The translations under genes and the position numbers were made by a program. The notes under the pieces were generated by a model. The model was not told the origin of the DNA and ran no database searches. It was given only the letters and a program-made list of their open reading frames with translations. This document shows positions 61,186-62,992 of a stretch of 64,000 bases of DNA, in pieces. The stretch is from Chryseobacterium luquanense (lineage in GTDB: Bacteria; Bacteroidota; Bacteroidia; Flavobacteriales; Weeksellaceae), in NCBI RefSeq assembly GCF_026460945.1, contig NZ_JAOVZV010000015.1, forward strand, positions 62,001-126,000, in the 5' to 3' direction. Positions within the stretch are counted from its first letter, which is position 1; every line of letters starts with the position of its first letter.

Positions 61186-61695
61186 TTATGGAGATTGCTT
61201 AGGTCTCGAATTGTTCTTTCCATCATGAGATTTCTTTTCGTTCATTTTATCACGCATCATCGCCTCAGAATTGAAAAGCTTCAAGACTTTCTGACAAGGT
61301 ATTACAGTCTGCATTTTTTCTGCATATTTTTTTCTATTGTCAAATAATTTTTGTCCCATATCAAAACTCTGTTGAAGCTTTACTTTTGCTTCTTCTTCGG
61401 TCAATTTCTCAGGATCAAAATTAGAATCGAACTGACTTTTTATTTTTTTCTGGTTATCAAGATATTCGTTATACATCGCAGTAAATTCTGCTTTATCCTG
61501 CGGTGCAACATCCAACATATCAACCACCATATTATTTCTAAACTGGGTAAGAAGTGCTTTTCTTTCATCCGGAGAAAGATTGTTTATTACCTCCTTTCTT
61601 TTCTCACGACTCATATTCTTCCAGTCATAATCTTTAATCTGAGCATTAAGCCCAAACCCAGAAATTATAAAAAGTGTAAATAATATTTTTTTCAT
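61186..61695 (-). CDS. Periplasmic Spy/CpxP-like helical protein of the sigma operon
   Basis: 169 aa with signal peptide (ends GLNAQ). Remainder is helical and charged; NLSPDERKALLTQFRNNMVV and EKLTEEEAKVKLQQSFDMG resemble the LTxxQ-type repeats of Spy/CpxP and zinc-resistance sensors. It is 7 nt after the anti-sigma-like gene and may help sense envelope stress. Inference from fold style and operon. Confidence 0.65.
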   Translation of the reverse strand: MKKILFTLFIISGFGLNAQIKDYDWKNMSREKRKEVINNLSPDERKALLTQFRNNMVVDMLDVAPQDKAEFTAMYNEYLDNQKKIKSQFDSNFDPEKLTEEEAKVKLQQSFDMGQKLFDNRKKYAEKMQTVIPCQKVLKLFNSEAMMRDKMNEKKSHDGKNNSRPKQSP

Positions 61696-61702
61696 CTTTC
61701 TT

Positions 61703-62422
61703 TTAATTATACAAGTCTAAATAAACATCCTGACTTGAGTTATTGGCTAACTCTGCAATTTCAGAACTGGTAAGAGACTCAATGTATTCATTCATATGAA
61801 TTTCGTTCGCTGGTTTTACCGTTTTTTTAGTCTGACTTGCAGAATTACTATTAACTGCCTGAGAAACCATAGGCTTTATATTAACCTGACTCTCAATTCT
61901 TTGATCATTATTTTCAACAGAAGTTAAATCTGATGCTAAAGTTTCATAAGCTACCTGACTTTCTTTTTTGGGCAAAGTTCTGTTATCAGCAATGTTATTT
62001 GTTGAATCTGAATTTATTGCAGAATCTGAATTTAAATTATAAATAAAAGCCGACCCAAAAATAAGAGCTAAAGACGCCGCTGCAGCATATCCCCAATTCA
62101 ATTTGAAAATCGGTGCTTTTTTCTCAACTTTTATCTCATTCAAAACTCGTTCCTGAATTGTTTCAAACAAATTCTCAGGAATTTTATAAATGTTTTTACG
62201 TTCTAATTCTTCTAGATTGAATTCTTTCACTTCGCCCAATACTCTATCCTGAACTGTTTGAAATAAGTTTTCAGGAGTTTTGTATATATTTTTGCGTTCT
62301 AAGTTCTCCAGATCGAAATCTTTCACTCCGCTCAACACTTTTTCCTGAATATTTTCGAAAATATTCTCAGGAACTTTATAAATGTTTTTACGTTCTAAAT
62401 TATCTAGATCAAAATTTTTCAT
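61703..62422 (-). CDS. Anti-sigma-like membrane protein with a triplicated N-terminal module
   Basis: 239 aa from ATG 62422. Residues 2-97 are three tandem copies of a 32-residue module marked by LERKNIYK.PEN.F; then a linker, one membrane helix (about 109-129, WGYAAAASLALIFGSAFIYNL) and a polar periplasmic part ending SSEIAELANNSSQDVYLDLYN. The gene is 18 nt after an ECF sigma factor gene, so an anti-sigma role is likely. The repeats would face the cytoplasm, where sigma is bound. Confidence 0.75.
   Translation of the reverse strand: MKNFDLDNLERKNIYKVPENIFENIQEKVLSGVKDFDLENLERKNIYKTPENLFQTVQDRVLGEVKEFNLEELERKNIYKIPENLFETIQERVLNEIKVEKKAPIFKLNWGYAAAASLALIFGSAFIYNLNSDSAINSDSTNNIADNRTLPKKESQVAYETLASDLTSVENNDQRIESQVNIKPMVSQAVNSNSASQTKKTVKPANEIHMNEYIESLTSSEIAELANNSSQDVYLDLYN
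62132..62419 (-). repeat. Three tandem 96-bp coding repeats
   Basis: Three 96-nt units inside the anti-sigma-like gene, similar at DNA level (ACGTTCTAA, CTCAGGAA.TTTTATA words repeat) but diverged, so an older in-frame triplication. Confidence 0.8.
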
Positions 62423-62440
62423 ACTTTGTTTTCTCAAAAA

Positions 62441-62992
62441 TTATCTTTCGTAATTTTCTTTGATATATTCTTCTATTTTCTGTTTGGCATAATGATAATT
62501 TGTTTTTAAAGTCCCAACAGACATATCTACAATTTTAGATATTTCTTCGTAAGGCAAATCATCATAGTATCGCATCATAAATACCAGTTTCTGCTTCTCG
62601 GGAAGGCTTTGTATAGCTTTTTGCAAAAAAACTTGTATTTCTTCGGCATCGCTGTGCGTATTATCGGCAACCAGATTCTGCATATAATATTCAGGGTCTT
62701 CATCTGTCTTCTGCATTCTTTTTAGCTTATTGATCTGCTGCAACGCTTCATTGGTCGCAATTCTGTAAAGCCAGGTATACAGCTGACTATCATTTTTGAA
62801 TTGATGAAAATTCTGATATGCTTTTATAAATGTTTCCTGCAAAGTATCCTGCGCAAGGTCTGCATCTACAATAATACGTCTAATGTGCCAATATAATCTA
62901 CTCTGATAAGCATCCATTAACACCCGAAGGCCTTTTTCAAGGGTTCGAGGATCTTGCATCAGCGCAATAATTTCTGCGTCTTTAATCTTCAT
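62441..62992 (-). CDS. ECF-type RNA polymerase sigma factor
   Basis: 183 aa. Sigma-70 region 2 (about 20-95: LAQDTLQETFIKAYQNFHQF and LYTWLYRIATNEALQ) and region 4 (about 125-175: LPEKQKLVFMMRYYDDLPYEEIS and TLKTNYHYAKQKI). No other domain. It heads the sigma / anti-sigma / periplasmic protein operon and has a good primary promoter. Confidence 0.94.
   Translation of the reverse strand: MKIKDAEIIALMQDPRTLEKGLRVLMDAYQSRLYWHIRRIIVDADLAQDTLQETFIKAYQNFHQFKNDSQLYTWLYRIATNEALQQINKLKRMQKTDEDPEYYMQNLVADNTHSDAEEIQVFLQKAIQSLPEKQKLVFMMRYYDDLPYEEISKIVDMSVGTLKTNYHYAKQKIEEYIKENYER

Follow-up and report, generated by a model that had tools for sequence, protein, structure and literature searches.

Anti-sigma factors encoded beside ECF sigma genes are already known, and those covered by the available text of two reports contact and block both sigma2 and sigma4 (PMC7406223, PMC4598750). 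Class I factors (RseA, ChrR, RsiW, RskA) lie beside an ECF sigma gene and are often anchored in the membrane. Their anti-sigma domain is built of four helices, with a mean length of 101 residues (PMC7406223, accessible part). In the class II factor CnrY of Cupriavidus metallidurans, which accompanies the sigma factor CnrH and the periplasmic sensor CnrX, two helices embrace sigma (PMC7406223, PMC4598750), and the CnrY and NepR complexes are reported to superpose without sequence similarity (PMC4598750, in the portion available). Specific to Bacteroidota, the recently reported Dma proteins of Bacteroides thetaiotaomicron are described as dual membrane-spanning anti-sigma factors working with the ECF21 sigma factors Das, and the deletion of dma2 acts through its sigma (PMC13088901, in excerpt). 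THC0290_1773/1774 of Flavobacterium psychrophilum form an anti-sigma/ECF pair whose promoter has motif SM6, also present at type IX secretion genes (PMC9723704, partial text). Only 6% of Bacteroidetes ECFs have a class I anti-sigma neighbour, which leaves room for other classes, and in earlier work cited in the same source the RpoE-like group of Bacteroidetes had no conserved one (PMC7406223, available sections).

The protein considered here (239 aa) is encoded in a window of 64,000 nucleotides from Chryseobacterium luquanense. It shares with the class I factors its place beside an ECF sigma gene, but in its single-module relatives the membrane helix is preceded by only about 45 residues, instead of a 101-residue domain, and none of the anti-sigma models scored at its cut-off in the proteins scanned. 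Like CnrY, it is a membrane protein with a short, putatively sigma-binding cytoplasmic segment and, as with CnrH, CnrY and CnrX, it belongs to a three-part set of sigma factor, anti-sigma(-like) protein and (here predicted) periplasmic protein. A profile of the whole protein searched against PDB chains at E ≤ 10 recovered neither CnrY nor any other anti-sigma factor (two unrelated weak matches were returned); moreover, the CnrY segment is presented without mention of tandem copies in the consulted parts of PMC7406223 and PMC4598750. The likeness to Dma, judged from what is available of PMC13088901, consists of an ECF sigma gene next door, an N-terminal (here putative) sigma-binding part, a membrane helix and the occurrence in Bacteroidota, whereas Dma carries a long disordered tether and a C-terminal beta-barrel, for which the 239-aa protein has, in a comparison by architecture, a short tail of only about 109 residues after the membrane helix. 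THC0290_1773/1774 are comparable by their description, in the accessible text, as an anti-sigma and ECF pair of a Bacteroidota species. A search of the open-access literature, with most subscription papers outside its reach, gave no recognisable account of the module family or of its tandem arrays, both of which thus appear to be undescribed there.

The locus and its repeat array

The three genes follow each other on the minus strand in the order ECF sigma factor, 239-aa protein, 169-aa protein (Table 1). The first is an ECF sigma gene by its domains, since sigma-70 regions 2 and 4 both exceed their Pfam cut-offs (Sigma70_r2: E = 5.1e-13, 49.1 bits, cut-off 24; Sigma70_r4_2: E = 2.1e-15, 56.5 bits, cut-off 25.7), and NCBIfam TIGR02937 (sigma70-ECF) scores 93.7 bits for a cut-off of 42.9. 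Its stop codon stands 18 nt before the ATG of the 239-aa protein, in the same frame (62423–62443), which bears out the anti-sigma context proposed in the first-pass annotation. Ortholog N-termini, mostly MK[DNE]FD or MK[DNE]LD, fall at the same position as this ATG; an in-frame TTG at 62437, between the sigma stop and the ATG, is an alternative start, so that a slightly longer protein is possible from sequence alone. Of 80 named relatives, 51 have the two genes in separate reading frames.

Table 1. Features of the locus, in positions of the window (the profile that scored M1 to M3 was itself built with these modules included).
Feature	Positions	Strand	Basis
ECF sigma factor gene, 183 aa	62441–62992	minus	Pfam Sigma70_r2 and Sigma70_r4_2, NCBIfam TIGR02937
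Anti-sigma-like membrane protein gene, 239 aa, ATG start	61703–62422	minus	ORF; ortholog starts
Module 1 (M1), residues 3–34	62321–62416	minus	profile match 66.7 bits, E = 8.5e-18
Module 2 (M2), residues 35–66	62225–62320	minus	profile match 64.6 bits, E = 3.8e-17
Module 3 (M3), residues 67–98	62129–62224	minus	profile match 62.4 bits, E = 1.8e-16
Predicted membrane helix, residues ~112–130	62033–62089	minus	hydropathy and charge bias
Conserved extreme C-terminus QDVYLDLYN, predicted periplasmic	61706–61732	minus	family alignment
169-aa protein gene, signal-peptide-like start (by eye), charged body	61186–61695	minus	relatives in family loci

The N-terminal part of the 239-aa protein is made of three tandem units of 96 nt, i.e., 32 residues, at 62129–62416. 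The first-pass annotation had reported such a triplicated module at 62132–62419: the repeat is indeed there and the module stands as described, while the coordinates were off by 3 nt. Tandem Repeats Finder places it at 62151–62421 (period 96, 2.8 copies) with a score of 313, the highest of its 43 rows in the window, the runner-up scoring 58. A repeat search returned three 90-nt copies at spacings of 96 and 96, the reference copy being matched at 78% and 82% identity by the other two. At the protein level, pairwise identities among M1, M2 and M3 amount to 21, 21 and 23 of 32 residues, and three-fold tandem identity reaches 0.677 at best, whereas 200 shuffles averaged 0.173 and did not exceed 0.261; the three-fold repeat is thus far beyond chance. 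In the genome of C. luquanense, the module profile gives three matches at E ≤ 1.8e-16, all within this gene; the next one has an E-value of 0.40, and no further significant match to the unit lies outside the gene.

A basic linker separates the modules from the predicted membrane helix, so the units do precede a hydrophobic segment, as had been noted from the sequence. Its hydropathy maximum is moderate (1.5 over 19 residues), and K/R residues flank it on one side only (four in the preceding 15 residues, none in the following 15), which is why the modules should be cytoplasmic; the 239-aa protein is accordingly predicted to have a cytoplasmic N-terminus and a single membrane helix. At the other end of the protein, D232, Y234, L235, D236 and Y238 are invariant in eight aligned family proteins. 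Across the family, the last residues, QD[VI]YLDLYN, hardly vary; in wider Bacteroidota homologs, acidic motifs (e.g., [DE]xx[IL]xxYL) often occur towards the end of the tail, in some of them twice (by eye). The conserved tail may be a dock for the product of the third gene or for a protease.

The small product of the third gene is apparently exported, judging from its N-terminus. No Pfam family exceeds its cut-off on it; across the third-gene family, PF07813 (E = 0.014) and PF13801 (E = 0.046) match weakly, in one of 11 members each, and the best PDB match of the family profile is weak as well (E = 0.045). As the Pfam and PDB matches are weak only, kinship with CnrX/Spy is not claimed. In six distant loci of the phylum (L213, L214 and L216–L219), a small protein with a signal-peptide-like start also follows the module gene (by eye).

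The anti-sigma-like proteins that were scanned gave no match at cut-off to any Pfam or NCBIfam model. In one distant protein, PF13800 (Sigma_reg_N) matched the membrane-helix region with 14.6 bits, short of its cut-off of 26.3, and PF11859 (DUF3379) attained at best E = 0.0018, in three of eight proteins, with 13.7 and 17.4 bits (cut-off 33.2) in the two that were rescanned. Two matches were rejected as chance: Pfam GMP_synt_C on module 3 (E = 0.11, below cut-off and over 22 residues only) and, in the PDB, VPS9 for the whole-protein profile (E = 0.21). AlphaFold2 was run on sigma/anti-sigma fusions reading through the in-frame stop, one with the three modules of the window and one with the single module of C. 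oryctis, from shallow alignments of very similar sequences (45 and 41 rows, respectively, almost all from a single genus); with mean pLDDT values of 44 and 56, the models are uninformative on the sigma interface or contacts. The one-module model, of low confidence (pLDDT 56), has a short helix followed by a longer one, and the length would fit the two-helix segment of class II (CnrY/NepR-like) factors.

Module number in the genus, the family and the phylum

Relatives of the 239-aa protein were found in 172 of 173 genomes of the genus and in 257 of 296 genomes of the family, genus included; the best named relative among the matches listed, from a search that may omit the nearest records, is C. 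formosus (93% identity over the whole protein). We examined 120 loci, 90 from the genus and 30 from other genera of the family, and all of them hold the sigma gene, the anti-sigma-like gene and a relative of the third gene (phmmer, E ≤ 1e-3) together. According to the module profile, three copies are present in 18 genus loci, two in 39 and one in 33, and the variable repeat number, which the first-pass annotation expected between strains, holds between species; because the 90 loci were chosen to include the matches reaching furthest into the N-terminus, multi-copy cases are over-represented among them. The copy count covers this locus set; among the other 82 of the 172 genus genomes, the matches listed start at query residue 57–64, as do those of single-copy proteins. 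In the other genera, 27 loci have one copy and three have two. C. lathyri, C. indologenes and C. jejuense have one copy in every record (two to three named records each). On a quick tree of the 120 family loci, computed from the sigma factor, the third gene and the tail (modules left out), module number changes at least 12 times, a figure to be taken as an estimate in view of long branches and weak forks, the well-supported branches alone forcing three to five changes per state.

In single-copy orthologs, the N-terminal region comprises one module, the basic linker and the membrane helix, which makes the module their only substantial cytoplasmic segment. As it represents nearly all of the cytoplasmic part of these relatives, it is a natural candidate for sigma binding.

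Beyond the family, a strict family profile matched 14 of 296 Bacteroidota genomes at E ≤ 0.01, seven of them outside the family. Six of these seven matches are beside a sigma gene; the other one (L215, E = 0.0016), which sits in a 31-residue open frame without a sigma neighbour, was taken as chance, and the same genome yields a sigma-linked match with a looser profile (L276). This looser core profile (A5), seeded partly from the six sigma-adjacent matches, was run on 296 Bacteroidota genomes, of which 85 matched at E ≤ 0.1; the best-match locus of all 85 was examined, and sigma genes were called by a sigma-factor profile built from the family (E ≤ 1e-5). The module protein is directly behind an ECF sigma gene in 72 of the 85 genomes, and in 65 of 65 at E ≤ 0.005; since six of the 72 supplied seed peptides, from proteins already known to be beside sigma genes, this association is not a fully blind test, even though sigma itself is absent from the query. 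Among the weaker matches (E 0.005–0.1), seven of 20 genomes have the sigma gene directly upstream, and in 13 of the 85 (E 0.0077–0.093) no sigma gene was found in the stretch examined around the best match. The gap between the two genes in sigma-linked loci ranges from -14 to 120 nt (median 33). In all 66 genomes with both features measured, the strongest hydrophobic segment follows the last module, though the hydropathy of the presumed membrane helix is modest (<1.6) in 10 of them. Of the general traits of a membrane-bound anti-sigma factor, a conserved sigma neighbour is observed at both family and phylum level, and a cytoplasmic N-terminus with a single membrane helix is predicted from hydropathy and charge bias.

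Over the 72 genomes, one copy was counted in 41, two in 17, three in nine, five in three, six in one and seven in one, after dropping the duplicate loci L251, L257, L266 and L267 (from the same genomes as L248, L250, L249 and L238); profile counts are conservative, L241 and L270 each showing one more copy by eye. The seven-copy array (L248/L251, one genome) is the longest observed, with hardly any difference among its inner modules. A quick sigma tree of the 72 genomes requires at least 12 changes when copy number is coded in three states (one, two, three or more) and at least eight between one and several copies, with weak and long branches to be borne in mind here too. Positional comparison was limited to 13 proteins with three or more copies (L221, L232 and one L259 copy, without a full window, being left out): mean identity is 0.44 between copies within one protein, against 0.36 between first copies and 0.40 between last copies of different proteins, as repeated local expansion would give. 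Positional classes of modules differ only slightly (mean identity 0.34–0.40 between proteins), too little to argue for capping modules. Across Bacteroidota, the core of the module is roughly [FY]xVPxxYF together with a helix. The N-termini of Dma-type beta-barrel anti-sigma factors often have a motif of the type P-x-[GN]-L-W, which resembles this core.

Conservation of the copies and readings of their number

The 90 genus loci contain 165 modules, in all of which Y/F12, F/Y19, Q23 and V/I26 are present; the last three would share one face of the second helix. P15 is almost always kept in single or first modules (33/33 in one-copy, 37/39 in two-copy and 17/18 in three-copy loci) and is relaxed in later ones (20/39 in two-copy loci, 10/18 and 12/18 in three-copy loci). 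Pooled dN/dS values for modules 1 to 3, from 10 non-independent pairs of three-module genes, are 0.42, 0.22 and 0.17, all below 1, compared with 0.025 for the sigma gene; the higher value of module 1 coincides with a low synonymous rate and not with more amino-acid change. This low rate between species (pS 0.17 in module 1, 62321–62416; 0.41 in module 2 and 0.49 in module 3) perhaps reflects constraint on a translation start located just behind the sigma gene.

How the extra copies act can be read in several ways, the first of which we consider rather unlikely. Each module would bind a separate sigma molecule, so that one membrane protein stores several and releases them at a sharp threshold; the retention of the same core residues in the copies, the likeness of copies within a protein, which a single partner would predict, and the arrays of five to seven copies in five of the 72 genomes speak for it, while the single copy of 41 genomes and the relaxed P15 of later copies, which could mean weaker binding, speak against it. 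Rather doubtful, in our view, is a tighter 1:1 complex in which two or more modules grip different faces (sigma2, sigma4) of one sigma. It would agree with the known ECF anti-sigma factors, which touch both regions (PMC7406223, PMC4598750, available text), and with the difference between first and later copies at P15, but single-module relatives would need another route to both faces, and arrays of five to seven seem beyond the use of one sigma.

Neutral drift, under which any one module is enough and copy number rises and falls by recombination without consequence, strikes us as about equally doubtful. Copy number does differ among close relatives, and in L002 an identical 36-nt block (by eye) is common to modules 1 and 3 and absent between those of its sister L063, likely an exchange between copies; however, none of the 165 genus modules is decayed (the lowest profile score is 43.6 bits) and dN/dS is well below 1 for every copy. 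Different partners for different modules, an idea of the first-pass annotation, be they sigma paralogs or another cytoplasmic protein, would account for the contrast at P15, yet we regard them as improbable, because copies keep the same core residues and resemble each other more within a protein than first or last copies do between proteins. Finally, the idea that the modules bind something unrelated and that the neighbouring sigma merely transcribes the operon draws on the lack of a family model at cut-off or of a solved structure assigning a function, and is very improbable, given that an ECF sigma gene immediately precedes the module gene in 72 of 85 module-matched genomes and that the modules are predicted to be cytoplasmic.

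Proposed function of the module

We consider it rather probable that the 239-aa protein is a membrane-anchored anti-sigma factor with a short sigma-holding module, of which one copy is enough in many relatives and which has been tandemly duplicated here. The sigma-holding part would be a module of about 22–32 residues, built in the window's family as a short first helix, an [FY]x[VT]P turn and an amphipathic helix. While a single module would suffice in many relatives, tandem duplication would have led to the three copies of C. luquanense and, repeatedly and to differing extents, to those found elsewhere in Bacteroidota (one to seven observed). The product of the upstream sigma gene would be bound by the modules and retained at the membrane, to be freed by a periplasmic signal that the tail and the product of the third gene perhaps relay. 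Module 1, with its strict consensus, is probably the primary site, and the extra copies would raise capacity or avidity. By analogy, the action of the module is possibly CnrY-like: it might block the sigma2 and sigma4 surfaces as CnrY does, with less protein. We infer sigma as the binding partner from the gene neighbourhood and the single-copy relatives, and neighbouring genes indicate a shared function, not contact; the fold, the release route and the role of the extra copies are likewise what we infer.

A broader proposal, which we consider rather unlikely, about as much as the separate binding of several sigma molecules, is that of a Bacteroidota anti-sigma "comb", in which one to seven or more minimal sigma-binding modules are strung along a membrane-anchored protein. 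If true, the number of teeth would determine the number of sigma molecules in store or the sharpness of their release, and the teeth would belong to a module class absent from Pfam and NCBIfam. A module recurring beside ECF sigma genes would fill part of the anti-sigma gap of Bacteroidetes, next to the Dma class, and its natural relatives with one to seven copies would make the effect of the number of binding sites on sigma release testable without engineered proteins.
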